Positions 5,980 through 56,815 of a stretch of 64,000 bases of DNA are shown here, one piece after another (position 1 is the first letter of the stretch; the number at the start of each line of letters is the position of its first letter). The stretch is from Diplolepis rosae. Its lineage: Eukaryota; Arthropoda; Insecta; Hymenoptera; Diplolepididae. Under the pieces are notes generated by a model that was given only the letters and a program-made list of their open reading frames with translations, was not told the DNA's origin and ran no database searches. Location: contig JAPYXD010000715.1 in NCBI GenBank assembly GCA_030998225.1, positions 2,852,001 to 2,916,000 on the forward strand. The letters are read 5' to 3'. Position numbers and translations under genes: made by a program.

Positions 5980-6825
5980 CCCTATTGAAAAACTTGACGT
6001 AAAAAATAACGTAAAAAATGACCTAAAAAAGGACGTCAAAAATGGCGTAAAAAGCGACGTCAAAAATGACATAAAAAACGACGTCAAAAATTACGAAAAA
6101 ACGAGGTCAAAAATTGGGACAGTTTTTTACGTCATTTTTGACGTCGTTTTTGACGCACTTTTTTGTCTTTAAGAAGCCTTACATTTCCTATTACATTTTT
6201 GTGACTCCTTTACGAAATGCCCATTCCAATTTGAAATAAATTATTTTATTATACAATAGTTCTTTTACTGATAAGCATTTCTCAATTACGATACCCAATG
6301 AACGACCGAATATAAATTGTTAAGGCTTTTTAAAGACAAAAAAGTACGTCAAAAACGACATAAAAAACGACGTCAAAAATTAAGTAAAAAACGATGTCAA
6401 AAATTGAGTTAGTTTTTTACGTCATTTTTTACGTTATTTTTTAAGACGTTTTTTACGTAATTTTTCGACTTTAAGAAGCCTTAACAATTTATATTCGGTC
6501 GTTCATTGGATATCGTAATTGAGAAATGCTTATCAGTAAAAGAACTATTGTATAATAAAATAATTTATTTCAAAGTGGAATGGGCATTTCGTAAAGGAGT
6601 CACAAAAATGTAATAGGAAATGTAAGGCTTCTTAAAGACAAAAAAGTACGTCAAAAACGACGTCAAAAACGACATAAAAAACGACGTAAAAAACTTTCCC
6701 AATTTTTAACTTCGTTTTTTACGTGATTTTTGACGTCGTTTTTTACGTCATTTTTGACGTAATTTTTGACGTCGTTTTTTATGTCATTTTTGACGTCGTT
6801 TTTTACGTCAAGTTTTTCAATAGGG
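5980..6825. mobile_element. Foldback element with GACGT-repeat arms
   Basis: The ends are perfect inverted copies, CCCTATTGAAAAACTTGACG at the left and its complement at the right. Each arm consists of tens of bp of short tandem units of the type GACGTCAAAAATGACATAAAA. Inside them lies a second inverted pair of about 170 bp (6165-6345 and 6475-6645, opening near CTTTAAGAAGCCTTA), then more GACGT repeats at the centre. The whole 846 bp can fold into one nested hairpin. It encodes nothing. No target duplication is obvious (flanks ...TAAACA and CAGTTTT...). Confidence 0.85.
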
Positions 6826-7329
6826 CAGTTTTGCAGGACACGTGCACTAATGTCAAATCAAAGTCAATCGTTTAATTCTCGTCATTAGAATTATCGTTTC
6901 AATAATAATTATTATTATACAGTTAATTATTATTATAATAAGTATCATCAAATAATTAATCATTATAAGAATAATTATTATTATGTAAACATTCATCATT
7001 ATAACGATTATTTTTATTAGGTGATACTACGAATGTCTCTAAAATTATTAGTTCTTATTTTGATCAGTATTTTAAAGTTGCGCTGGAATTCTATTGCATT
7101 AAGAGAGCCAGAATATGAAGGAGAGTTGTCGCCACCCCTTCCACGCGCTCTCCCTATCTCCCTGACATGAGCTGTAGTGCAGCGAGTGCACGTGCGATTG
7201 ATGGCTAGAAGAAAGAAAAAGAACAGACGAGAAAGAAAAGAGAGTCTCGGCCACGGCACGCATGATACAATTACGCGTTGGCCACGGGAGTATCTTATCT
7301 TTGATTTGATTACTCCCGTCTCGTAGAGT
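6826..7329. other. AT-rich tract followed by GC-richer unidentified DNA
   Basis: 6850-7080 is dominated by TAATAATTATTA-type sequence. 7081-7329 is GC-richer and joins the gypsy integrase remnant at about 7330, where the reading frame loses all integrase similarity. This marks the broken left edge of that element. Confidence 0.4.
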
Positions 7330-8735
7330 CAACCGTAACACGTGTTCTCGGAGGGGTTCGCTTGAAGGTTGTCTTGCTAATTTACTAAAAACTAATTCGA
7401 ATGGAGTGCAGCAAGTTCCTTCATGAATGCTTGTATTGTAAGAAAATGTAGCTAGTTCTATCCAGTCATCCCATTCGGAACTTTTACTTATAAATTGTTT
7501 TAAATATTCAGCTATATTACTTGCGAGAGAATTGGGAAGTGGTATTGCTAATGAATACTTAGTGAAATTGTCTTGAATTGTTAATATAGACTCGTGTAAT
7601 TTTTGTGTTATTGGCAATGGACTTACAATGTCCATAGAAATTTTTTTAAAGGCGGTTCCTGGAGTATCAGTTATTATCATAGGTTCTTTTGTTTTTACGC
7701 GTACAAGATTTTTTAATTGGCATTTTAACCACGTTTGAATATATTTTTGAACATCTAATTTCATATTATGCCAATAATAATTTTGACGTATTCTACTAAA
7801 AGTTTTAGCGACTCCTTCATGCCCACCTAAGGTCGATGAGTGATTATATTGCGATTTGTCGATAATTTTACGGCCGGCAGATCCTTCTCAGTGGGGGGCA
7901 GTTCTAGTGGCGGTCGATTTTCTAAGTCTTCAGATCCTATATTTTGTGTTTCTGTTTATAAGTTATCATTAAAGTCTTCATGATTTTCTTTTTTAGTCTT
8001 TTCTAAAAGTTGATTCTTGAGTTATAGAGAATTGTTTTTCATTAAGATATCGGATTCGTCAGAAGAATAATCCAAATCTGTGCTTTCATTGATTAAAGAA
8101 TTTTGTTAAATTTGTAATCTGAATCAATTGCATTTTCTCCTTCATTAAGATTATCATTTTCTTTTTTCTTCTGTTTCTTTCTCTGTGTTTTATTCTTATC
8201 TTTGATCAAAGGTTTTAATATATCCTTTCTTGGTCTACCTCTTTTTCTTCCAGGTATAGGCACTGATATAGTTTTATTTTTGATAATTTTTCGTTTTTAT
8301 TTCTTTTTAGGAGGTTCGTCGTCGTTTTCTTCATCTTTTTCTTCATTTGAGTCTGAAAAATCTTTATAATTTGGCTGTTCATATATTTTCGCATTTTGTT
8401 TTCTTGCTTGGTTTCAAGTTAATATGGCATTTATTTTTGAGTCTATTTTTGTATTTTGTTTTTGTTTTAATTCTGATAATATATATGAGATGACTGAATT
8501 TTCGGTTTCGTCATCAGAACTCGAATTTTGAATGGAGGGTTGTTTTTTCTCGAATTTTGAAAAATTTGTGGCTACCGGAGGTTCGGGCTCGCCATCAGAA
8601 TTTTTGTTGTTGATATATGTTTGTATCAAATAGAAAAGATTTGTATATTTCGTAGAATTTATAGATTTTGTATATTTTGTAGGATTTGTAGATTTTGTAC
8701 ATTTTATAGATTTTGTAGATTTTGTTTTCATCGCA
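7330..8735 (-). pseudogene. Ty3/gypsy integrase and pol linker remnant
   Basis: On the minus strand the stretch to 7764 reads as a retroelement integrase: an aspartate in MDIVSPLPIT, then LTIQDNFTKYSLAIPL, and further on FSYNTSIHEGTCCTPFELVF. The sequence jumps from SLASNIAE directly to YLKQFISKSSEW. The segment normally carrying the second Asp and the Glu of the DDE triad is therefore deleted. Upstream (7765-8735) lies a charged pol linker with an RKRGRPRK AT-hook-like patch, broken by stops and containing an array encoding TKSINSTKYT-type repeats from an 11-12-bp DNA tandem repeat (8638-8735). It cannot encode an active integrase. Confidence 0.8.
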
Positions 8736-9640
8736 AAATTCCCTTCTGTATCATTTTCTTTGATGAAATTCGAAAAATATTTTGAATCATCATTGTTTTT
8801 AGATTCAGAAGTATTTGTTTTATTTTCATTTTCTTTAATATTTTTTACAGGATTTCTAGATAACTCGTCAGCATTAACATTCGTTTTTCCTGCTTTATAT
8901 ACAACATCGAAGTCATATTCGACTTATTTAAATCTCCATTTTGTTACTCGAGAACAAGGGTCTCTAGAATTTTGGAACCATACCACCATACTGTCGCTAA
9001 CTGTACGAGAAGTATAAGCTATCGGTTTATCTTGTCCTATTTTTTTCGCATTTTTGAATTTGAAGGGCAGTCTATCAAATTCGTAGTGTCTAAATGGAGT
9101 TGAGAAAGCTGTTTTATGTGAATCTTTAGGATCCATTGGAATATGATGGAATCCAGTGGCTCAATCAAAGACTGAGAAATATCGTGCGTTTCCTAATTGA
9201 TCTAAAATATCAATAATGTTTGGTAATGGATAAGAATCTCGGATTGTTTTCTCATTTAATTTCCTGAAATCTAAAGCCATTATCCACTTTCGTTTTAGTT
9301 TTTTAGGTACAATAAATACTGTTGTATTATAAGGAGATTGAGAGTGTTTGATCATTTTATTTTTTAAAAGCTCATTAACTTGTTTAGTAATTTTTTCTTT
9401 GTGTGCTGGTGGAAAACTATATTGTTTCGAAAAAATCGGTCGCTCATCAACAGTAGGGATTGAGTGCATAGCAGCATCAATAGGTTCTAGAGGTTTATCT
9501 GGCATTTGGAATCTGTCTGAATGTTTAGTAATTAATTTTTTAACGTGATTCAGCTCTTTTTGATTTAAATGATCCAAACGAAGGAGGTCTGTAATTTTCT
9601 TCACTCTATCTTCACCTGAAATGTTATAGAGCTGTGACAA
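8736..9640 (-). pseudogene. Ty3/gypsy reverse transcriptase-RNase H remnant lacking the RT core
   Basis: The minus strand encodes the pol N-terminal linker and the RT fingers (FSKQYSFPPAHKEKITKQVN, MALDFRKLNEKTIRDSYPLP, QLGNARYFSVFD), then a stop where a leucine is expected. The palm begins with [15 protein letters not shown]. It then jumps from [10 protein letters not shown] straight to [17 protein letters not shown], which belongs at the start of RNase H. The catalytic YxDD motif and thumb are therefore absent. A further frameshift or stop precedes the usual NVNADELSRNP end of RNase H. It is related to the copy at 58163-61280 and clearly non-functional. Confidence 0.85.
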
Positions 9641-10300
9641 TGTTTTTTCTGTTCCGTTGGTGAAAATAAATTTGTTGATTAATTCTTCTGGATTGTTGCT
9701 TTCGTATTTGTAGTTTTATAATTATTTATCGTAATTTCTTTAAAGTCCTCTATTATAACGGTAGGAGTTTTTATTTCTATTTGTATAGAAATTATGTTTG
9801 CTACGTTTATATAGGCTTTTCCACTATAATTTTTAACAACATCGTTTGTTGCATATATTCCTTTTTTAAAGAAAGTAAAGGTATAAATCCTTCTTTTAGA
9901 TTTGCATTTGTAATTCGAATACAAACAGTAGAAATTGATCTTGCTGGTAAAATTGTGGTTTTAGGATCTCGAAATGGATATTTATTATTATTTATTTCTA
10001 AACATTTTGAAATTTAATTAATGTTGACGTAATTATCAATAAAAAATTCAGATCCTAGTACTCCATCTTCTTCTACTGGTACACTATTTGGTATTAAATT
10101 AAATATTGTAGGGTATCAAAAGATGTTAAGTGTAATCTGACCTAATGTATAAATTGGTACATTGTTTATTCCCGTGAGACGCAAAATTTCATTTTAGTTT
10201 ATTTCTATATCGTTTACTATTATATTCCATTTCATCAAATTTCTTCCTGCTCCTGTGTCTATCATACGCGCTGGGTTTTTTAGACCATAAGCAGATATCA
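9641..10300 (-). pseudogene. Ty3/gypsy aspartic protease remnant
   Basis: On the minus strand, MIDTGAGRNLMK near 10225-10262 is the active-site loop (D-T-G-A) of a retropepsin-like protease. About 60 residues on, GVLGSEFF matches the second conserved glycine-rich segment. Several stops interrupt the frame between these and the RT. It lies between gag (right) and RT (left), the normal gag-PR-RT order for a minus-strand gypsy element. Confidence 0.78.
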
Positions 10301-10399
10301 CAATAGAAGGAATTGGGTTGTCTCAGTGTAAATTTATTTTTGTATTTTTAATATTCTAATTTGAAGTGGGTGCTCTAAAATGTTTTAAATGGCCTCCCT

Positions 10400-12166
10400 T
10401 ATTGCACCCTGAGCGGAGAGGGGTTTGGAGTTTCCCTGGTTCTGTTTTTCAGCTCTTCTAGATTATTGTTGCTGTTTAAATGATTCGTTGTATGCTCGAC
10501 GTCGACATTCGTCAATTGTGTGACCTATTTTTTTACAATAATTACAATTTTTATTATTAATTCTGTTTGGACAATTCTATTAAAATTGTTAGTGTTTTGC
10601 TGTCGGCATGAACTTGTGTTAGGTGCAGATGATTAAGGTTACCATTGACTCATATCTTCTCGGCGGGGGGTCCATTGACCTGCTTGAGGCCCTCTGTTGA
10701 ATGGTTGCTGTTGGTTATTCCTATTGTAAAAGTTCTGACGACTGGAAAGATTTCTTGCAGGCTGCCAGGGTATCTTGTTATTATTCAAAAGTCTTTGCTG
10801 ATTTGAAGTTATTTGATTTAATTGTCTACAAGTAGGAGCTATGGTATGTGTCCGTTTTTGCCACAAATTTGACAAAAAATTTCTTCCGGAGTTATATTTA
10901 TCCTATTTCTATCTCGTTTTTCTGATGGTCCTATTAAATTATCTTCTTTTTGCCCATATGGTGTACGTGCGGATCGCAGTGCTGCATGTGCAGAGATTTT
11001 TCTTTCCATTTCTAGAGCGCTGTTTATCGTATCTTTAAAATCATGTACACCTTGTAATCTAGATTCAATTTCGGTTTTTAATCCTCGTAAATAACAATCC
11101 CGAATATCGCTGTCAAGAGCTGCTTGAAAATTTTCATCTATCCTATTATTATTATTTGCTTTATGGGCGTTTAATATTTTTTCTCCAAGTTCCCTAACAC
11201 GAGTTGCGTAAGAAATTACCTTCTCACTATCCCGTTGATAAATGTTCCCTAATTCACCTTGTGATTGATATACCGATTTATTTAAAGTATAAATGCGTTT
11301 AAGACTATCTATAATATCTCCTACATTTCTGTATTATCCTCCAGTGACACATTTTCTTGCTTCTCTTTTGACCTTTGTTTTGATTAATTTAGTTGAGTTT
11401 GATTAATTTAGTTGAGTTTGATTCTGTCCCTGCAGAATGCATATCTTTCGCTCCTCTACATCCTTCTATAAATTGGTCCAGAGATATATTATCTCCTGTA
11501 AATATTGGTACAACTTCTAGTGCATCTCGCAATGATACTACTTGATTATGAGCAACAGTTATAACTTGTGGGATATTGGCATTCATTTTTTGTAGTGAAA
11601 TTTTATTTGAAATAGGCGAATAATCTTTTTTATATTGTTTAATTAGAGGTTCTAATAGTTGTGGATCGTTAGAATTTGATTTTTCGGGATCTTCTGCTAA
11701 TTTGTCTGGAAATTTGTAATTTAATTCACGGTCTGAGTCTTCTGGGGATTCAGATAAATGTAATTGTTCTTTATAATTTCAAAGTATTTGTTGGGATCAA
11801 AGTGCGGTTAAATTTATCGACTATGGTAGAATCTCCGGTTAAATTTGATGTATCAAAAATACTTTTATCGAATAATATTGAATCTGTTTAAGTTGATCGG
11901 TCGTTTGGATGTATACTAGAACTAATTATTATACTAGTATCTTGATTAGGATTTTCTGACAGCTCTAATTTTTGGGACGTAGAGGCACTAGTATTTAAAG
12001 GAGTATTTGGATTTTTCGATTCTTGGTTTTCAGCTGTTTTTTTCATAATTTCAAAAGCTTTTTTCCTATTGTCTTCTATAATTTCAGCGAGTTTTGGATT
12101 GTTTTTAGCCTGACTACGAGTAAAACTTTTTGTTGTTAAATTATCTTTCTTATTTTCCACTGACAT
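10400..12166 (-). pseudogene. Ty3/gypsy gag remnant with two zinc knuckles
   Basis: The start is the ATG at 12164-12166, followed by a polar, Lys/Asn-rich N-terminus that hits a stop after 92 codons. Capsid-like sequence resumes at LRDALEVVPIFTGDN near 11540. Near the C-terminus are two CCHC knuckles: CQICGKNGH followed by a shifted IAPTC (around 10870, broken by a frameshift) and an intact CNYCKKIGHTIDEC (around 10505-10546). Between them lies an Asn/Gln-rich stretch. At 11380-11412 an 18-bp unit is tandemly duplicated and disrupts the frame. Confidence 0.8.
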
Positions 12167-16109: not shown

Positions 16110-17010
16110 GGGTCATTTCATGGGAGATTTACAGTCAAAATTTTTTTTTCGACGAACTATTTTTTTTGTCTTCTTACTTCGAAAATAATCGACACATTTT
16201 TCTTTTCAATGTGATACTTGAATATTTCGAGATATAATTTTTTTAAGTTTGTCACTCGGGAAAATTTTTTTTTTTCTAACAGCTCACTGTAAAAGCAGTT
16301 TTTAACATAAAATGTAACCCTTGCACTTGAAACACGCGACAGAGTACAAGCTTTCAAAAAAGTTATGGCACACATTTCGTTGTTTTTTTTGTAATAACAA
16401 TATAGTACATTTTTATAAGCAATTGAATTTTTTTTAAATTTGGAACTAATTTTTTACCGATTTTTTTGTTTCTAAATTTTTGTTGAAGTTTTTTCAATAT
16501 GCAGGAAAAATTTTGGAATTGAAAAATGAAAACTGTAGGTGTTATTTTCGAATGAGGATTTCTTTGAGGATTTTTTCAAAGGGGTCGAATGATTGTTATT
16601 TGTATATACGTATGGGTCATTTCATGGGAGATTTACAGTCAACATTTTTTTTCGACGAAATATTTTTTTGCCTTCTTACTTCGAAAATAATCGACACGCT
16701 TTTTTTCAATGTGATACTTGAAAATTTCGAGTTATAATTTTTTTAAGCTTGGCACTCGGGAAACATTTTTTTTTTCTAACAGCTCACTGTAAAAGCAGTT
16801 TTGAATATAAAATGTAACAAATTAATTAGTTGAGTTTGAAATTTTTGTCACTGCCTACATTATCGGAGGATCACTAGTCGCGTGTCAGATAGGATACGTT
16901 GTCGACAGGTGTCCTCGTAAACAATTTCAAACTCTTATATCGCAAATAATGCAAATAAATTTAATATTTTAAAGAATTTGAAAATCTTTGTGTGGAAAAA
17001 ATGACGCTTT

Positions 17011-17082
17011 CGACTGCGCTGGGATTCGAGCCCAGGTCTTTCGATTGCCGGTCGACTGCTCTGACCACTGAGCTACACAGGC
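17011..17082 (-). tRNA. tRNA-like sequence (Ala GGC-like), SINE head copy 1
   Basis: GCCTGTG / TA / GCTC-loop-GAGC form an acceptor strand and a D arm, and CTGGG-CTCGAAT-CCCAG forms a T arm. The A-box-like TAGCTCAGTGG and the B-box-like GGGCTCGAATCCC are good pol III promoter matches. The anticodon loop reads CCGGCAA (GGC, alanine) but has C instead of U before the anticodon, and the stem has one mismatch. The acceptor pairs 6 of 7. I read it as a tRNA-derived SINE promoter rather than a working tRNA gene. Confidence 0.55.
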
Positions 17083-17351
17083 GTCCGACATCTCTTTCTC
17101 CACAGGAAGATCTCCTTATATCGCCTAGTGGCTCAGCCTTGCGGCTGTAAAATGATTTCAAATTAATTAGTTGAGTTTGAAATTTTTGTCACTGCCTACA
17201 TTATCGGAGGATCACTAGTCGCGTGTCAGATAGGATACGTTGTCGACAGGTGTCCTCGTAGACAATTTCAAACTCTTATATAGCAAATAATGCAAATAAA
17301 TTTAATATTTTAAAGAATTTGAAAATCTTTGTGTGGAAAAAATGACGCTTT

Positions 17352-17423
17352 CGACTGCGCTGGGATTCGAGCCCAGGTCTTTCGATTGCCGGTCGACTGC
17401 TCTGACCACTGAGCTACACAGGC
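17352..17423 (-). tRNA. tRNA-like sequence, SINE head copy 2
   Basis: The 72 bases appear identical to copy 1. This copy is cut immediately after the acceptor start, where the sequence switches to the inverted third copy at GCAGTGACAAAAATTTCAAA. Confidence 0.55.
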
Positions 17424-17534
17424 AGTGACAAAAATTTCAAACTCAACTAATTAATTTGAAATCATTTTACAGCCGCAAGGCTGAGCCACTAGGCGATATA
17501 AGGAGATCTTCCTGTGGAGAAAGAGATGTCGGAC

Positions 17535-17606
17535 GCCTGTGTAGCTCAGTGGTCAGAGCAGTCGACCGGCAATCGAAAGACCTGGGCTCGAATCCCAGCG
17601 CAGTCG
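17535..17606 (+). tRNA. tRNA-like sequence, SINE head copy 3 (inverted)
   Basis: The same 72 bases on the opposite strand, followed by a T-run at about 17616, a possible pol III stop. Its tail is cut at the cluster border. Confidence 0.55.
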
Positions 17607-18754
17607 AAAGCGTCATTTTTTCCACACAAAGATTTTCAAATTCTTTAAAATATAAAATGTAACCCTTGCACTTGAAATGCGCGAAAGAGTACAAGCTTTC
17701 AAAAAAGTTATAGCACACATTTCGTTGTTTTTTTTTTTAATAACAATATAGTACATTTTTATAAACAATTGAATTTTTTTTTAATTTTGAACTAATTTTT
17801 TTCCGATTTTTTTGTTTCTAAATTTTTGTTGAAGTTTTTTCAATATGCAGGCAAAATTTTGGAATGGAAAAATGAAAACTGTAGGTGTAATTAATTTATA
17901 AAATCTGTCCCACCCATTGCAGCGGTTCACTGCCACATGTGTTTCGAGTCCGAGCATGCCTAAACAATCTCGAGCGTAGTTGCAGCGTGCGAGCTCGCTC
18001 GTTGCAACGCGCGGGACAGATTTTATGAATTTATTACACCTACAGTTTTCATTTTTCAATTCCAAAATTTTTCCTGCATATTGAAAAAACTTCAACAAAA
18101 ATTTAGAAACAAAAAAATCGGAAAAAAATTAGTTCAAAATTAAAAAAAAATTCAATTGTTTATAAAAATGTACTATATTGTTATTAAAAAAAAAAAAACG
18201 AAATGTGTGCTATAACTTTTTTGAAAGCTTGTACTCTTTCGCGCATTTCAAGTGCAAGGGTTACATTTTATATTCAAAACTGCTTTTACAATGAGCTGTT
18301 AGAAAAAAAAAATGTTTCCCGAGTGCCAAGCTTAAAAAAATTATAACTCGAAATTTTCAAGTATCACATTGAAAAAAAAGCGTGTCGATTATTTTCGAAG
18401 TAAGAAGGCAAAAAAAATATTTCGTCGAAAAAAAATGTTGACTGTAAATCTCCCATGAAATGACCCATACGTATATACAAATAACAATCATTCGACCCCT
18501 TTGAAAAAATCCTCAAAGAAATCCTCATTCGAAAATAACACCTACAGTTTTCCACGGGGAATTCACAAGAAATTCATAATTTCTCGCAAATCTCCTTCAG
18601 GAATTTAAAAATACTGGCAGATTTTCTCTTGAATATTTTCGTGTTATTTTCAAAGTTGGATTTCCGCAAAGATTTTTCCAACAGCGACAGTAGTGTGAAT
18701 ACAAAAATTATATTTTGATCAACACAGGTTCTGTATTAACACTGGTCTTAATAA

Positions 18755-18932: not shown

Positions 18933-19056
18933 ATTTTATTTTCATATTTAAAGGACAGAGGACACTAATATTAATAAAAATTCAACTAACAACAAACTTG
19001 TATATTATACAAATGAGTTTCCATAAGTTTAATAATTATTTCAAAAACAACATTCA

Positions 19057-19762
19057 TACGTTCAAACTCTTCAAAAGTGGAAAATAGTTAGAATTTAACG
19101 TATAAATATTATCATTTTTGTTTATGCTATTTTTTTGACATTTAATATGAATCATTTCAGATATAAATCTCTTTTTATAACTAATTTCGGAATCTACTAC
19201 AACAGTCCTATTCCAATCAAATTCATGTCCAAAATTAATTTGATGCTGACAAACAACTGATTCATTATTTTTATTATTAATATGTTCCTTTATACGTGCC
19301 TTTAAAGATCTTTTTGTTTCACTGATGTAACACGCTTCGCAATCTTTGCAACAAATTCTATAAACAACATTAGTTCTATCCATTGTGTTGGTGCTGTCTT
19401 TACCTAATTTGATGACAGAGCTCAAATTTTTATTGACAATTGGGATGGTTGAAATATTAAAAACTTTCAAACTTGAAGACAATTTTTTTTAAATTCTTTC
19501 AACAAAGGGCAAGAAAACAGAAGTATTGGAGTTATGTAAAAAATACTTATTTTTATTGCTAATGCTTTCATTATGGTTAGAATAAAAAGAAGATCTAATT
19601 TTTCCCAGACAGGTTATAATATTTTTTAAAATCTGAATAACTTTCAACAAATTCTCATGATAAAATTCATGATGAGATAATAAAATTGCTCTGTCAACAA
19701 GGTTAAAAACAATATTTTTCTTTTGTTGAGTTGGATGATTTGAAGAATAGTTAATAACTCTG
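19057..19762 (-). pseudogene. Penelope-like element: RT end and GIY-YIG endonuclease
   Basis: The minus strand encodes VDRAILLSH and FYSNHNESISNKNKYF-type sequence of the end of a Penelope RT, one stop, then a linker. The domain VVYRICCKDCEACYISETKR, followed by SLKARIKEH, fits the Penelope type of GIY-YIG endonuclease (Tyr, Cys pair, Y-I-x-x-T-K-R). It ends with a basic tail. Most of the RT is missing upstream, so the copy is truncated. The in-frame stop at about 19490 confirms it is dead. Confidence 0.82.
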
Positions 19763-23203: not shown

Positions 23204-23331
23204 TTAAGGAACTTACTCACCTACCCGCCTAGTCAAAACATGGTTAAACACGCAGGTTGACTACAGTAGTACTTGATCTGGCAACGTCGCATCTTGTTTG
23301 TTCGTGTGCGCACAGGTGTACAGTCGCACAT

Positions 23332-23589
23332 ATGGTCACGTCAGTACCTAAGAAATGTTTCTCAGACATGAAATTATACAATGAATTAAAAAGTTGCACA
23401 TCCGTCCAAATAAGGAAAAAAATGATTGCCTCTGACATCACGGTAGCTATGGTTATCGATGCATACAAAGAACATGGTTTTGATGGATTATCTCGTTTGT
23501 TTGGTGCTGATAAAAACGGGAAAATTCGTGTGACAAATAATAGGAAGGTTAAAAATAAAATCTGTGATTATCTGAAAACAAAATACTAA
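23332..23589 (+). CDS. Array unit 1: 85-codon ORF of unknown family
   Basis: The ATG gives MVTSVPKKCFSDMKLYNELK and the frame ends in CDYLKTKY. The small basic protein has a central IASDITVAMVIDAYKEHGFD segment, probably helical, and a Lys/Arg-rich tail (RVTNNRKVKNK). There is no signal peptide or membrane segment. Compared with unit 4 it differs at six amino-acid-changing and three silent codons, which does not suggest purifying selection. An AATAAA lies about 200 bp downstream. The frame is also open for 25 codons upstream of this ATG. I do not recognise the family. Confidence 0.5.
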   Translation: MVTSVPKKCFSDMKLYNELKSCTSVQIRKKMIASDITVAMVIDAYKEHGFDGLSRLFGADKNGKIRVTNNRKVKNKICDYLKTKY

Positions 23590-24448
23590 TTTACTTTAGT
23601 TTAGTTTGTATATATTTATTGTATATGGTATGTATCAAATATTTTAAATAATAATTAATGAACGATTGTGATGATACTAGATATGTATTAAAAATTGTTA
23701 TATCGATTCAAGACTGAAAATAAGACAAACTTAGTATGTCATTGAGAAAGATTTTACGTACTACGTATTATGATATGTATGTAAATAAAGTTGTTTGTAT
23801 TAATAATTAATATATTATATTTCATTTATTAAAAACATGATTTTCATAACAAATTTTAATCACCAGTTGGTACGAGCTGCTGAATAGATATAACGCATAC
23901 ATTTCAAATTTCGCGCACATAACCTACGAATGGGGCCTTTACCACATACCTGACCAAAGTCCAAAATCACAGCAATTTCCAATCTTCATCGTATTTGTTA
24001 TTACTTTTAGAACCCGCCTTTGAATGTTATTAAAATTAATAACGATTCCTGATCATCTTGTTTTTCTACTGTTCAAATCCTGTTATGATCTGTTCGTCAG
24101 TTGAAAAGATATCAATGATAATACACGATAACCTCCGCGATTTGTCATAAGAGTCCATGTTGAATCTTCTAGAGAGGCGCAAAATAGAAATATGAATATC
24201 TCACTAAAAAACCCACCTCAGACCTTAAAATTTCGTACCGATAATTTTTTAATTATATTCTAACGCTCTGCAAAGTTTAAGATTTTTCTGTTTGTTAATT
24301 CTTCATCCTGAGTAACTCCCTTAAGGGAGTTACTCACCTACCCATTTAGTCAAAACAGGGTTAAACACGCAGGTTGACTACAGTAGTACTTGATCTGGCA
24401 ACGTTGCATTTTGTTTGTTCGTGTACGCACGGGTGTACAGTCGCACAT

Positions 24449-24707
24449 ATGGCCACGTCAGTACCTAAGCAATGTTTCTCAGAAATGAAATTATACAATG
24501 AATTAAAAAAGCTGCACATCCGTCCAAATAAGGAAAAAACTGATTGCCTCTGATATCACGGTAGCTATGGTTATCGATGCATACAAAGAACATAGTTTTG
24601 TTGGATTATCTCGTTTGTTTGGTGCTGATAAAAACAGGAAAATTCGTGTGACAAATAATAGGAAAGTTAAAAATAAAATCTGTGATTATCTGAAAACAAA
24701 ATACTAA
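24449..24707 (+). pseudogene. Array unit 2: frameshifted copy of the 85-codon ORF
   Basis: Same reading frame as the other units until an extra A in the run GAATTAAAAAAGCTGC (about 24505), which shifts the frame after NELK. The remaining sequence still matches in the other frame through the TAA at 24705, with one extra change (Gly to Ser in KEHGF). Confidence 0.75.
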
Positions 24708-25588
24708 TTGTCTTCAGTTTAGTTTGTATATATTTATTGTATATGGTATGTATCAAATATTTTAAATAATAATTAATGAACGATTGTGATGATACTAGAT
24801 ATGTATTAAAAATTGTTATATCGATTCAAGACTGAAAATAAGACAAACTTAGTATGTCATTGAGGAAGATTTTACGTACTACGTATTATATGTATGTAAA
24901 TAAAGTTGTTTGTATGTACTTAATTTGTTTATTTATCATACGAATAATTAACATGTTATATTTCATTTATTAAAAACATGATTTTCATAACAAATTTTAA
25001 TCACCAGTCGGTACGAGCTGCTGAATAGATATAACGCATACATTTCAAATTTCGCGCACATAACCTACGAATGCGACGTTGCCACATACCTGACCAAAGT
25101 CCAAAATCACAGCAATTTCCAATCTTCATCGTATTTGTTATTACTTTTAGAACCCGCCTTTGAATGTTATTAAAATTAATAACGATTCCTGATCATCTTG
25201 TTTTTCTACTGTTCAAATCCTGTTATGATCTGTTCGTCAGTTGAAAAGATATCAATGATAATACACGATAACCTCCGCGATTTGTCATAAGAGTCCATGT
25301 TGAATCTTCTAGAGAGGCGCAAAATAGAAATATGAATATCTCACTAAAAAACCCACCTCAGACCTTAAAATTTCGTACCGATAATTTTTTAATTATATTC
25401 TAACGCTCTGCAAAGTTTAAGATTTTTCTGTTTGTTAATTCTTCATCCTGAGTAACTCCCTTAATGGAGTTACTCACCTACCCATTTAGTCAAAACAGGG
25501 TTAAACACGCAGGTTGACTACAGTAGTACTTGATCTGGCAACGTTGCATTTTGTTTGTTCGTGTACGCACGGGTGTACAGTCGCACAT

Positions 25589-25846
25589 ATGGCCACGTCA
25601 GTACCTAAGCAATGTTTCTCAGAAATGAAATTATACAATGAATTGAAGAGCTGCACATCCGTCCAAATAAGGAAAAAAATGATTGACTCTGATATCACGG
25701 TAGCTATGGTTATCGATGCATACAAAGAACATGGTTTTGTTGGATTATCTCGTTTGTTTGGTGCTGATAAAAACAGGAAAATTCGTGTGACAAATAATAG
25801 GAAAGTTAAAAATAAAATCTGTGATTATCTGAAAACAAAATACTAA
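25589..25846 (+). CDS. Array unit 3: 85-codon ORF of unknown family
   Basis: Intact copy beginning MATSVPKQCFSEMKLYNELK. It differs from unit 4 by Met for Leu and Asp for Ala in the KKxIxSD segment, plus two silent changes. The setting is the same: upstream CATATGGCC at the start codon and a downstream AATAAA. Confidence 0.5.
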   Translation: MATSVPKQCFSEMKLYNELKSCTSVQIRKKMIDSDITVAMVIDAYKEHGFVGLSRLFGADKNRKIRVTNNRKVKNKICDYLKTKY

Positions 25847-26722
25847 TTGTCTTCAGTTTAGTTGGTATATATTTATTGTATATGTATCAAATATTCTAAA
25901 TAATAATTAATGATCGATTGTGATGATACTAGATATGTATTAAAAATTGTTATATCGATTCAAGACTGAAAATAAGACAAACTTAGTATGTCATTGAGGA
26001 AGATTTTACGTACTACGTATTATATGTATGTAAATAAAGTTGTTTGTATGTACTTAATTCGTTTATTTATCATACGAATAATTAACATGTTATATTTCAT
26101 TTATTAAAAACATGATTTTCATAACAAATTTTAATCACCAGTCGGTACGAGCTGCTGAATAGATATAACGCATACATTTCAAATTTCGCGCACATAACCT
26201 ACGAATGCGACGTTGCCACATACCTGACCAAAGTCCAAAATCACAGCAATTTCCAATCTTCATCGTATTTGTTATTACTTTTAGAACCCGCCTTTGAATG
26301 TTATTAAAATTAATAACGATTCCTGATCATCTTGTTTTTCTACTGTTCAAATCCTGTTATGATCTGTTCGTCAGTTGAAAAGATATCAATGATAATACAC
26401 GATAACCTCCGCGATTTGTCATAAGAGTCCATGTTGAATCTTCTAGAGAGGCGCAAAATAGAAATATGAATATCTCACTAAAAAACCCACCTCAGACCTT
26501 AAAATTTCGTACCGATAATTTTTTAATTATATTCTAACGCTCTGCAAAGTTTAAGATTTTTCTGTTTGTTAATTCTTCATCCTGAGTAACTCCCTTAATG
26601 GAGTTACTCACCTACCCATTTAGTCAAAACAGGGTTAAACACGCAGGTTGACTACAGTAGTACTTGATCTGGCAACGTTGCATTTTGTTTGTTCGTGTAC
26701 GCACGGGTGTACAGTCGCACAT

Positions 26723-26980
26723 ATGGCCACGTCAGTACCTAAGCAATGTTTCTCAGAAATGAAATTATACAATGAATTAAAAAGCTGCACATCCGTCCAA
26801 ATAAGGAAAAAACTGATTGCCTCTGATATCACGGTAGCTATGGTTATCGATGCATACAAAGAACATGGTTTTGTTGGATTATCTCGTTTGTTTGGTGCTG
26901 ATAAAAACAGGAAAATTCGTGTGACAAATAATAGGAAAGTTAAAAATAAAATCTGTGATTATCTGAAAACAAAATACTAA
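26723..26980 (+). CDS. Array unit 4: 85-codon ORF of unknown family
   Basis: Intact frame with MATSVPKQCFSEMK at the start and KVKNKICDYLKTKY at the end. AATAAA lies at 27167-27172, about 190 bp after the stop, so each unit could be a complete small transcription unit. No CAAT/TATA pair is obvious in the 120 bp between the unit border and the ATG. The function is unknown. It may be a relic of a larger protein captured by the element. Confidence 0.5.
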   Translation: MATSVPKQCFSEMKLYNELKSCTSVQIRKKLIASDITVAMVIDAYKEHGFVGLSRLFGADKNRKIRVTNNRKVKNKICDYLKTKY

Positions 26981-27856
26981 TTGTCTTCAGTTTAGTTGGT
27001 ATATATTTATTGTATATGTATCAAATATTCTAAATAATAATTAATGATCGATTGTGATGATACTAGATATGTATTAAAAATTGTTATATCGATTCAAGAC
27101 TGAAAATAAGACAAACTTAGTATGTCATTGAGGAAGATTTTACGTACTACGTATTATATGTATGTAAATAAAGTTGTTTGTATGTACTTAATTCGTTTAT
27201 TTATCATACGAATAATTAACATGTTATATTTCATTTATTAAAAACATGATTTTCATAACAAATTTTAATCACCAGTCGGTACGAGCTGCTGAATAGATAT
27301 AACGCATACATTTCAAATTTCGCGCACATAACCTACGAATGCGACGTTGCCACATACCTGACCAAAGTCCAAAATCACAGCAATTTCCAATCTTCATCGT
27401 ATTTGTTATTACTTTTAGAACCCGCCTTTGAATGTTATTAAAATTAATAACGATTCCTGATCATCTTGTTTTTCTACTGTTCAAATCCTGTTATGATCTG
27501 TTCGTCAGTTGAAAAGATATCAATGATAATACACGATAACCTCCGCGATTTGTCATAAGAGTCCATGTTGAATCTTCTAGAGAGGCGCAAAATAGAAATA
27601 TGAATATCTCACTAAAAAACCCACCTCAGACCTTAAAATTTCGTACCGATAATTTTTTAATTATATTCTAACGCTCTGCAAAGTTTAAGATTTTTCTGTT
27701 TGTTAATTCTTCATCCTGAGTAACTCCCTTAATGGAGTTACTCACCTACCCATTTAGTCAAAACAGGGTTAAACACGCAGGTTGACTACAGTAGTACTTG
27801 ATCTGGCAACGTTGCATTTTGTTTGTTCGTGTACGCACGGGTGTACAGTCGCACAT

Positions 27857-28114
27857 ATGGCCACGTCAGTACCTAAGCAATGTTTCTCAGAAATGAAATT
27901 ATACAATGAATTAAAAAGCTGCACATCCGTCCAAATAAGGAAAAAACTGATTGCCTCTGATATCACGGTAGCTATGGTTATCGATGCATACAAAGAACAT
28001 GGTTTTGTTGGATTATCTCGTTTGTTTGGTGCTGATAAAAACAGGAAAATTCGTGTGACAAATAATAGGAAAGTTAAAAATAAAATCTGTGATTATCTGA
28101 AAACAAAATACTAA
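27857..28114 (+). CDS. Array unit 5: 85-codon ORF of unknown family
   Basis: By eye, identical to unit 4 over the coding part. The unit diverges only after about 28500, toward the right edge of the array. Confidence 0.5.
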   Translation: MATSVPKQCFSEMKLYNELKSCTSVQIRKKLIASDITVAMVIDAYKEHGFVGLSRLFGADKNRKIRVTNNRKVKNKICDYLKTKY

Positions 28115-28866
28115 TTGTCTTCAGTTTAGTTGGTATATATTTATTGTATATGTATCAAATATTCTAAATAATAATTAATGATCGATTGTGATGATACTAG
28201 ATATGTATTAAAAATTGTTATATCGATTCAAGACTGAAAATAAGACAAACTTAGTATGTCATTGAGGAAGATTTTACGTACTACGTATTATATGTATGTA
28301 AATAAAGTTGTTTGTATGTACTTAATTCGTTTATTTATCATACGAATAATTAACATGTTATATTTCATTTATTAAAAACATGATTTTCATAACAAATTTT
28401 AATCACCAGTCGGTACGAGCTGCTGAATAGATATAACGCATACATTTCAAATTTCGCGCACATAACCTACGAATGCGACGTTGCCACATACCTGACCAAA
28501 GACCAAAATCACAGCAATTTCCAATCTTCATCGTATTTGTTATTACTTTTAGAACCCGCCTTTGAATGTTATTAAAATTAATAACGATTCCTGATCATCT
28601 TATTTTTCTACTGTTCAAATCCCGTTATGATCTGTTCGTCAGTTAAAAAGATATCAATCATAATGCACGGTAAACTCCGGGATTTCTCATAAGAGCCCAA
28701 GTTGAATCAAGTAGAGAGGCGCAAAATAGAAATACGAATATCTCACTAAACAACCCACCACAGACCTTGAAATTTCGTACGGATAATTTTTTTATTATAT
28801 TCTAACGTTCTGCAAAGTTTAAAATTTTCCTGTTCGTTAATTCTTCATCCTGAGTAACTCCCTTAA

Positions 28867-37027: not shown

Positions 37028-38278
37028 AGGGTTTTCCAACTGGGACACAACAATTTTATCTATGAATAAAGCACAGAAATATTTGAGATATTGAGTTCAA
37101 ATTTATTGTGGGTGTAATGCAAGCATTACATTTAATGAGCGAAATTCGATATCGGTCATATGACCACCACGAGCCCGTTTACAGCGGTCGACTCTTTGGA
37201 CCCAATTTTCCACCACTCTGGCACACATTTCGACCGAAACGTTGGCAATTTCGCGTTGGATGTTGTCTTTGAGGTCGTCTAAAGTTGCTGGCTTGTTGGC
37301 ATAGACCAGTGACTTGATATGGCCCCATAAAAAGTAATCCAATGGCGTTAGATCGCATGAACGAGGCAGCAATTCGACCGGACCATTTCTCGAGATAATA
37401 CGTTCACCGAATTTGCCTTTCAATAAATCGATTGTGACGCGTGCTGTGTGCCTCGTGGCACCGTCTTGTTGAAACCACATATCGTTGATGTCAAGTTCAT
37501 CCAATTCTGGCCACAAATAATCTTCCAACATAGCACGATAGCGCTCTCCATTGACGGTAACATGACGGTCGTTTTCATCCACGAAAAAATACGGCCCAAT
37601 CACACCTCCGGCATGAAAACTGCACCAAACAGTCACTTTTTGCGGATACAACGGTGTCTCCAGAAGCACATTTGGGTTTGTTGCTGACCAATAACGCATA
37701 TTTTGCTTATTAACAAAGCCATTGAGCCAGAAATGAGCTTCATCGCTAAAGATGATTTTTCGATGAAATTCTTCATTTTCTTCCAGCTTTGCCAGAGCCC
37801 AATTGGAGAAGTTTCGGCGTTTCAAATGATCAAGTGGCTTTAGTTCTTGAGTCAATTTAATCTTGAAAGCATGTAGGCCAAGATCTTTTCGTATAATACG
37901 CCACAGTGTCGTTTGAGCGATGCCCAATTCTTGAGAATGACGTGGAATCGACTGATTTGGCTCATTTTGAATTGATGCACTTACGACTGCGATTATTTCT
38001 TCGCTTCGAGCAATACGACGTCTTTTTGGCAGCGGAACGGCCAATAGTGTAAATTTGGTCTCGAATTTATCCACTATAGCACGCACAGCCTGTCGGGTGG
38101 GACGATTATTACGGCCGAAAATTGGAGTAAGCGCTCTTAAAGTTGCGTCCACCGACTTAGAATTTTGGTAGTAATTTTTAATAATTTCCAAACGTTGCTG
38201 GTTCGTGAACTTTACCATGATGAAAACGTTGACTTTAACTAACGTTTCGAAATTGACAGTTCATTAAAAAAGTTTAAG
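37028..38278 (-). mobile_element. Rosa-type mariner element lacking its 5' terminal repeat
   Basis: The 3' end (left) has the terminal repeat GGGTTTTCCAACTGGGACAC next to TTTTAA. On the right the leader is homologous to the copy at 55.9 kb down to CACCCTTAAACT, then stops, losing about the outer 50 bp and thus the 5' terminal repeat. It carries the uninterrupted transposase gene at 37103-38218. Confidence 0.88.
37103..38218 (-). CDS. Mariner transposase, rosa family (DD41D), intact
   Basis: This 371-residue frame is uninterrupted. Residues 1-60 form the first helix-turn-helix (TNQQRLEIIKNYYQNSKSVD) and residues 65-110 a basic linker and second one (PKRRRIARSEE, SQELGIAQTTLWRIIRKDLG). The catalytic domain has Asp159 in KIIFSDEAHFWLNGF, Asp252 in WFQQDGATRHTA and Asp294 in SCDLTPLDYFLWG. 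The 41 residues between the last two give DD41D, diagnostic of the rosa-type mariners. Length and all motifs are complete, so it could make active cut-and-paste transposase at TA targets. Because its own element lacks one terminal repeat, it could act only on other copies. Whether it is transcribed cannot be told. Confidence 0.92.
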   Translation of the reverse strand: MVKFTNQQRLEIIKNYYQNSKSVDATLRALTPIFGRNNRPTRQAVRAIVDKFETKFTLLAVPLPKRRRIARSEEIIAVVSASIQNEPNQSIPRHSQELGIAQTTLWRIIRKDLGLHAFKIKLTQELKPLDHLKRRNFSNWALAKLEENEEFHRKIIFSDEAHFWLNGFVNKQNMRYWSATNPNVLLETPLYPQKVTVWCSFHAGGVIGPYFFVDENDRHVTVNGERYRAMLEDYLWPELDELDINDMWFQQDGATRHTARVTIDLLKGKFGERIISRNGPVELLPRSCDLTPLDYFLWGHIKSLVYANKPATLDDLKDNIQREIANVSVEMCARVVENWVQRVDRCKRARGGHMTDIEFRSLNVMLALHPQ

Positions 38279-40789: not shown

Positions 40790-40967
40790 TACTCTCTAAA
40801 TCTGAATCAGTCGAAATTTCACTGATTGAATCAGTAATTTGCCTTTTCACTGATTCATCAGTGCAAAAATATTTTTCACTGAAAAATCAGTTAATTTTCA
40901 CTGATTAAATCAGTGAAAAAAGTATTTTTCACTGTTAAATCAGTTGATTTTCACTGAAGTAATCAGT
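40790..40967. mobile_element. TCACTGA-rich palindromic insertion, copy 2
   Basis: The same family as 1916-2126. It opens with CTCTAAATCTGAATCAGTCG and has the same order of TTTCACTGATT, AATCAGT and GCCTTTTCACTGA words for the first 100 bp, then a different number of units. No clear target duplication is seen here. Confidence 0.7.
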
Positions 40968-55946: not shown

Positions 55947-56815
55947 GGGTTTTACCATAGGGACATAACAATTTCGCATCTTTAAATCAACTCACCCTTA
56001 AACTTTTTCAATGAAGTGTCAATGTCGAAACGTTAGTTAAAGTCAACATTTTCATCATGGTAAAATTCACGAACTAGCAACATTTGGAAATTATTAAAAA
56101 TTACTACCGAAATTCTTGTAGTGGTCGCAACTTTAAGAGCGCTTACTCCAATTTTCGGCCGTAATAATCGTCTCACCCGACAGGCTGTGCGTGCTATAGT
56201 GGATAAATTCGAGATAAAATTTACACTATTGGACGTTCCGGTGCCAAAAAGACGTCGTATTGCTCGAAGCGAAGAAATAATCGCAGCCGTAAGTGCATCG
56301 ATTCAAAATGAACAAATCAGTCGATTCCACGTCGTTCTCAAGAATCGGGCATCGCTCAAACGAAACTGTGGCGTATTTTGCAGAAAGATCTTGGCCTACA
56401 TGCTTTCAAGATTAAATTGACTCAAGAACTAAAGCCACTTGATCATTTGAAACGCCGAAACTTTTTCAATTGGGCTCTGGCAAAGCTTGAAGAAAATGAA
56501 GAATTTCATCGAAAAATCATTTTCAGCGATGAAGCTCATCTCTGGCTCAATGGCTTTGTTAATAAGCAAAATATACGTTATTGGTCAGCAACAAACCCAA
56601 CTGTGCTTTTTGAGACACCGTTGCATCCGCAAAAAGTGACTGTTGGTGCGGTTTTCATACCAGAGGTGTGATTGGACCGTATTTTTTCGTGGATGAAAAC
56701 GACCGTCATGTTACCGTCAATGGAGAGCGCTATCGTGCTATGTTGGAAGATTATTTGTGGCCAGAATTGGATGAATTTGACATCCACGATATATAGTTTC
56801 AACATGGAGGTTGTA
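55947..56815 (+). pseudogene. Rosa-type mariner, 3'-truncated and frameshifted
   Basis: Starts at the terminal repeat GGGTTTTACCATAGGGACAT next to TA. The leader and coding region follow the intact gene at 37103-38218: MVKFTN then a stop, TLRALTPIFGRNN, VPKRRRIARSEEI, then after frameshifts KDLGLHAFKIKLTQELKPL, IIFSDEAHLWLNGF (first Asp kept) and HVTVNGERYRAML. It ends at DEFDIHDI, just before the second catalytic Asp block, where GC-rich DNA begins. Confidence 0.88.

Follow-up and report, generated by a model that had tools for sequence, protein, structure and literature searches.

A 64,000-nucleotide stretch of the hymenopteran Diplolepis rosae genome (assembly GCA_030998225.1, contig JAPYXD010000715.1, positions 2,852,001 to 2,916,000), referred to here as the window, contains a tandem array of five TTAA-bounded units that is a mosaic of two diverged founder elements, A (unit 1) and B (unit 5). 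We consider it probable that the array descends from a pair of non-autonomous Kolobok-type transposons, most likely of the KolobokD kind, which recombination multiplied into five units. The units sit between TTAA targets, single copies of the same element are dispersed through the genome, and the inner units are nearly identical and switch between founders at one common breakpoint.

The array occupies positions 23204–28866 and comprises five head-to-tail units of 1,113–1,136 bp (1113, 1136, 1130, 1130 and 1130 bp for units 1–5, respectively), with a head-to-tail spacing of 1134 bp. As the original prediction described, TTAA stands once at each junction and once at each outer edge (23204, 24321, 25461, 26595, 27729 and 28863), and neighbouring units have a single target-site copy in common, as a tandem dimer formed by double insertion would. 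The unit ends proposed at the outset hold in part: TGAGTAACTCCC is found at all five 3′ ends, but a start of GGGAGTTACTCA occurs in unit 2 only, with unit 1 opening on GGAACTTACTCA and units 3–5 on TGGAGTTACTCA, whose first two bases are TG. An 85-codon open reading frame (ORF) is intact in units 1, 3, 4 and 5, but the copy in unit 2 is frameshifted by one extra A. The expected AATAAA is present in each unit, 187–195 bp past the stop codon, with a further AATAAA within the ORF, and the cluster is indeed laid out as a short satellite. The features of the array, in window coordinates, are as follows.

23204–23207, no strand: left outer TTAA target-site copy
23208–24320, plus strand: unit 1, founder A, 1113 bp, with a 26-bp deletion and 5′ end GGAACTTACTCA
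23332–23589, plus strand: unit 1 85-codon ORF, putative C-terminal tail (PML_C, SAM-like) of an exonuclease of DEDDh type
23942–23959, plus strand: 18-bp interval holding the A/B crossover point, unit 1
24321–24324, no strand: TTAA common to units 1 and 2 (CCCTTAAGGG)
24325–25460, plus strand: unit 2, hybrid of founder B (left) and founder A (right), with an A-type patch at about 24725–24780; ORF frameshifted
24449–24707, plus strand: unit 2 ORF, broken by a one-base insertion
25461–25464, no strand: TTAA common to units 2 and 3
25465–26594, plus strand: unit 3, hybrid B/A
25589–25846, plus strand: unit 3 ORF, intact
26595–26598, no strand: TTAA common to units 3 and 4
26599–27728, plus strand: unit 4, hybrid B/A
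26723–26980, plus strand: unit 4 ORF, intact
27729–27732, no strand: TTAA common to units 4 and 5
27733–28862, plus strand: unit 5, founder B
27857–28114, plus strand: unit 5 ORF, intact
25082–25099, 26216–26233, 27350–27367 and 28484–28501, plus strand: 18-bp crossover interval in units 2–5
28863–28866, no strand: right outer TTAA target-site copy

The mosaic emerges from an alignment of the five units. All 29 events private to unit 1 fall in columns 6–764, and all 23 private to unit 5 in columns 783–1116, giving left:right counts of 29:0 and 0:23 around the interval (Fisher 2.8e-15, cut at column 775). The left parts of units 2–4 match unit 5 and their right parts unit 1, the switch falling in one 18-bp interval, columns 765–782. 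Private events confined to one side, together with a common breakpoint, are what a single unequal crossover between A on the left and B on the right leaves once the hybrid has been copied. Pairwise identities among the five units, with gaps left out, range from 94.6% to 99.65%: the founders are 94.6% identical to one another, differing at 4.8% of sites left of the interval and 6.8% right of it, and the hybrids are 99.1–99.65% identical among themselves. Set against so simple a scheme are 16 more variable columns that belong to neither private class. Four unit 1-type features in columns 404–459 of unit 2—two substitutions, a 5-bp insertion and one unmutated site—are most readily explained as a conversion tract; the other unclassed columns are the unit's first base, a unit 3 site in the unit 1 state, a column within the unit 1 deletion, and singletons found in unit 2 or unit 3.

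Beyond the array, the unit belongs to a dispersed family. When the 85-residue protein was searched once against the genome that the window comes from (757.7 Mb, 428 contigs), 576 candidates were returned, and the best-scoring 150, ranked by ORF score, all match; these are spread over 76 contigs, four of them being units of the array, and by our own count 25 of the 150 contain stops. Sixty regions were fetched from these 150 (L009–L068; L001–L008 are left out of all copy counts), and an end was counted only where the match came within 6 bases of the terminus. In the 60 regions, TTAA precedes 49 of 55 left ends and follows 49 of 51 right ends, and stands on both sides in 39 of the 47 copies with both ends seen. 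By eye, the 10-base outer flanks of the first 40 regions are unlike one another, apart from a resemblance between L015 and L021. Twenty-four near full-length copies are 94.9–98.4% identical to a 1136-bp majority consensus computed from those 24 copies only, which fits one burst of transposition. The fetched copies are single insertions. In two regions family copies lie near each other, at spacings that exclude a shared-TTAA dimer: L040 has two in the same orientation 4.2 kb apart, and L048 an inverted pair 2.6 kb apart.

These dispersed copies speak to what the array is. Single TTAA-flanked units had been proposed as the thing to look for, confinement to the array being the outcome that would have reduced the TTAA borders to coincidence; such units exist elsewhere with the same ends, and the reading of the unit as a TTAA-targeting DNA transposon is upheld. 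Ordinary satellite DNA with TTAA borders by chance, for which the head-to-tail layout and regular spacing might be cited, has next to no likelihood, since the borders of single dispersed copies with the same ends are likewise TTAA. The suggestion that the element spreads as a satellite finds no such support. Satellites form long arrays of many copies; here there are five units, and outside the array the closest pair among the 150 listed matches of 576 lies 2.57 kb apart, in a list that was built on ORF score and that dimers with decayed ORFs would escape.

Judged by its sequence, the 85-codon ORF, which the original prediction left unrecognised, is putatively the C-terminal tail (PML_C, SAM-like) of an exonuclease of DEDDh type, such as has been reported for KolobokD. 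A protein search recovered 78 relatives, all from ENA contigs, and 7 of the 78 bear a precomputed PF25244 label. Against the Pfam family PML_C (PF25244), two window ORFs score 23.6 and 22.8 bits, under the cut-off of 27.1, which two of seven proteins tested pass (P0004 at 27.3 and P0021 at 27.6). The link to the exonuclease comes from three longer proteins. In P0003 and P0079, AHDALGDVVIL, which by eye is an exonuclease motif, leads into ORF-like sequence, and the likeness between the ORF and P0003 begins at about codon 4. P0080 reaches further upstream, covering the end of the exonuclease, and contains roughly the first 28 residues of the tail; its residues 5–76 match PDB entry 9l8b, annotated 'exodeoxyribonuclease III' (E 0.00032).

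Several results temper this assignment. The match of P0080 to Pfam RNase_T is sub-threshold (E 0.037), and Pfam finds no exonuclease in P0003 or P0079; these two contain just the end of the exonuclease domain. A PDB search with P0003 gave four weak matches, none of them an exonuclease of the DEDDh kind, and structure models were poor (mean predicted local distance difference test scores, pLDDT, of 54.7 and 49.9), placing a SAM-like fold beyond their reach. PDB searches with the ORF and with the profile yielded nothing convincing, a padded protein search gave 230 candidates and no significant match, and scans of viral contigs with the ORF, a 70-base stretch and P0080 produced nothing useful. 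PML-1 and exuperantia combine an EXO domain with a SAM-like domain (PMC12934764). By its position, PML_C would correspond to the SAM-like subdomain. The ORF resembles PXL/exuperantia-type proteins in matching PML_C, putatively their C-terminal SAM-like part, but the unit holds that C-terminal part alone, as a stand-alone ORF. As P0003, P0079 and P0080 join an exonuclease to an ORF-like tail, the unit looks like the product of an internal deletion, putatively composed of element ends, the last exonuclease codons and downstream sequence. Naming this orphan-looking ORF as an exonuclease tail helps the annotation of small 'PML_C' proteins in databases.

The unit behaves as a non-autonomous terminal inverted repeat (TIR) element, or miniature inverted-repeat transposable element (MITE): it is dispersed, has short inverted ends and exists in many similar copies. 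Its length of 1.13 kb, which includes an ORF, exceeds that of a typical MITE. Another group that targets TTAA is Sola3. Across the 60 regions, 54 of 55 left ends begin with two purines (GG 50, GA 2, AG 2) and all 51 right ends close with two pyrimidines. The Kolobok superfamily is recognised by a TTAA target and by 5′-RR and YY-3′ termini (Kojima and Bao 2022, PMC9587614), and the unit has both the TTAA target-site duplication and the purine–pyrimidine ends, although units 3–5 of the array begin with TG. Within that superfamily, KolobokD carries the gene for a DEDDh exonuclease resembling exuperantia and TREX, and is reported from mollusks, arthropods and cnidarians (PMC9587614). The unit shares with KolobokD the target, the termini and a putative exonuclease link, but is devoid of the transposase and exonuclease core and retains the putative exonuclease tail only.

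The unit is therefore most likely a non-autonomous KolobokD derivative, judged by its ends, target site and exonuclease tail. The weakness of this placement is that it stands on those three features, the transposase-bearing partner being putative. The piggyBac affiliation originally proposed is very unlikely: although a TTAA target and short inverted ends would suit a piggyBac-derived non-autonomous element, the ends of the unit, GGGA...TCCC, follow the Kolobok rule and not the piggyBac terminal motif CC[C/T]T (PMC2872659), and the ORF is the putative tail of a DEDDh exonuclease, an accessory reported for KolobokD.

How many insertions founded the array can be addressed through founder-specific alleles. 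Relative to the dispersed consensus, founder B carries alleles at positions 86, 107, 340, 390, 538, 919, 1009 and 1067 that are absent from A and that recur together in the dispersed copies L055, L060, L039, L032, L053 and L050. Founder A in turn has alleles missing from B, such as 948C, which is present in 22 dispersed copies, and its 26-bp deletion recurs in L025. Recurrence of this kind points to separate insertions from different subfamilies. A tree was built from 59 dispersed rows plus units 1 and 5 (U1 and U5), with rows of 500 letters or fewer dropped and units 2–4 kept out as hybrids; the alignment was masked at blocks 465–521 and 768–869 and at site 205. In this tree U5 groups with L039, L060, L055, L032, L053 and L050 (FastTree support 0.747–0.874), U1 groups with L042 and L022 (support 0.898), and U1 and U5 as sisters are disfavoured by the approximately unbiased (AU) test (p 0.039).

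An alternative is that a single element was duplicated in tandem to form the dimer—through slippage, rolling circle or re-integration of a circle—and that the two copies diverged in place before the crossover. Such a history is consistent with 11 positions (10 events, one 2-bp deletion being counted twice) that are derived in all five units and in 0–5 of 55–61 dispersed copies, and which are also compatible with A and B descending from one element. The trees offer it some room as well: sisterhood of U1 and U5 gives p 0.064 in the Shimodaira–Hasegawa (SH) test on the masked tree, the unmasked tree does not reject it (AU p 0.40), and the mask was picked from the data, because of those same positions. 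Slippage, moreover, was proposed for tandem TTAA-flanked MITEs in a 2010 coral study (PMC2872659). Nevertheless, we consider tandem duplication unlikely. The eight B alleles recur in separate dispersed copies and not in A, which independent mutation in place would hardly achieve; the masked tree disfavours it by the AU test; and the A–B identity resembles that between either founder and the dispersed copies (91.7–95.9%). Since the positions derived in all units mostly cluster in the blocks 465–521 and 768–869, where 776 is the sole A/B difference, we read them as gene conversion between A and B. Because the mask was chosen from the data, separate insertions of A and B around one TTAA are likely, not proven. 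A different kind of doubt is that the five-unit array, which is known from the assembly, was created in assembling the genome; this is extremely improbable, as founder alleles lie at opposite ends in the pattern that recombination predicts, and the contig is long, with a family match at 5.3 Mb on it. Exactly how many copies units 3 and 4 stand for is the least certain point, because these two differ in just 4 columns.

A history by double insertion and recombination would run as follows. The unit of about 1.13 kb, made up of element ends and the last ~82 or so exonuclease codons, would have been moved in trans by a full-length relative. Element A would have inserted at a TTAA, and element B, in the same orientation, into a TTAA flanking A, to give TTAA-A-TTAA-B-TTAA; A and B may have arrived in either order. 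Unequal crossover between A and B within the 18-bp interval would then have placed a hybrid unit, B on the left and A on the right, between the founders. Further unequal exchange could have raised the hybrids to three copies and left small gene-conversion tracts. In this sequence of events, the source of transposase and the kind of exchange are what we infer.

The array is a further case of a known route to repeat arrays, and an unusually legible one. Double insertion has been put forward as an origin of satellites (McGurk and Barbash 2018, as cited in PMC9659126 and PMC12368964), and the present array likewise consists of head-to-tail copies at the same site that would have grown by unequal exchange; here, by comparison, the process is read from founder-specific alleles at one assembled Kolobok-type locus. 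KolobokP forms multimers, tandem copies with a common border for which unequal crossover was proposed (PMC9587614), and the array is alike in both respects. KolobokP units, however, have long terminal direct repeats in common, whereas neighbours in the array have only TTAA; KolobokP also encodes a His-Me nuclease, whereas the only recognised ORF of the array is the putative exonuclease tail. Coral CMITE arrays (PMC2872659) similarly consist of full-size, TTAA-flanked, non-autonomous elements in tandem, but those are of piggyBac type (CC[C/T]T) and were explained by slippage, in contrast to the two founders and crossover interval seen here. In the library listings and passages searched on tandem MITEs, Kolobok, KolobokD and double insertion, no KolobokD-derived tandem array was recognised, which is weak evidence.

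Transposon-derived arrays are often too homogenised to reveal their origin. At this one locus one can still make out the two diverged founders, the 18-bp interval of their crossover, a conversion patch that came later and the hybrid's recent copying. The array may serve as a worked example of how neighbouring insertions become an array by unequal exchange, within a superfamily for which tandem copies have been described in KolobokP.

Whether the ORF is maintained was gauged from substitutions in 61 copies from the 60 regions, counted by locus and strand with the same-strand pair of L040 counted once. Selection on the ORF in single copies found no favour: changes private to one copy number 113 nonsynonymous (N) and 36 synonymous (S), a ratio of 3.14, where the non-coding spectrum predicts 3.15. 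Decay in single copies is neutral, and the ORF is a relic that shows no evidence of a maintained function in any individual copy. Changes common to at least three copies number 22 N and 11 S, and all ORF changes together 267 N and 107 S, 10 of which create stops. Source copies may have been under weak constraint. Substitutions per site are less frequent in the ORF than in the remainder of the unit (2.35% vs 3.05%), indels far less so (2 vs 82), and a first test on 40 regions gave 165 N and 71 S, a pooled ratio to expectation of 0.73 (p 0.03). Neither result proves selection, because the copies were picked by protein score, which biases them toward intact ORFs; the pooled ratio is weakened in the same way. 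There is a slim chance that many copies are translated into a stand-alone SAM-like/PML_C tail that works in trans, for instance by binding nucleic acid in competition with the full exonuclease or by assisting that enzyme. If so, the parasite would have retained the tail for its usefulness in the life cycle, and arrays of this sort would be amplified sources of it.

Elsewhere in the window are further repeats and element remains. Nested inverted repeats of up to 347 nt (94–100% complementary) at 16199–18552 hold three tRNA-Ala (GGC) genes of equal score, two on the minus strand and one on the plus. A near-perfect hairpin at 5980–6825, with 279-nt arms at 6122–6682 that are 93% complementary across a 3-nt gap, is made of 12-bp CGACGTCAAAAA-like units. 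Open frames at 7099–11778 (minus strand) resemble the remains of a long terminal repeat (LTR)-type retroelement; among the four frames tested there, a Pfam match was found only at 7102–7887 (integrase zinc-binding domain). On the minus strand at 19054–19488, an open frame has a GIY-YIG match just under the cut-off (E 0.00046), and may belong to a Penelope-like retroelement. A 385-codon open frame at 37103–38260, Tc1/mariner-like by eye, has a DUF4817 helix-turn-helix match, and an inverted second copy, split over two frames, lies ~18 kb off at 55971–56811. Finally, related short-palindrome repeats around ATCAGTGAAAA, 75–90% alike, stand 38.9 kb apart at 1916–2124 and 40790–40967.

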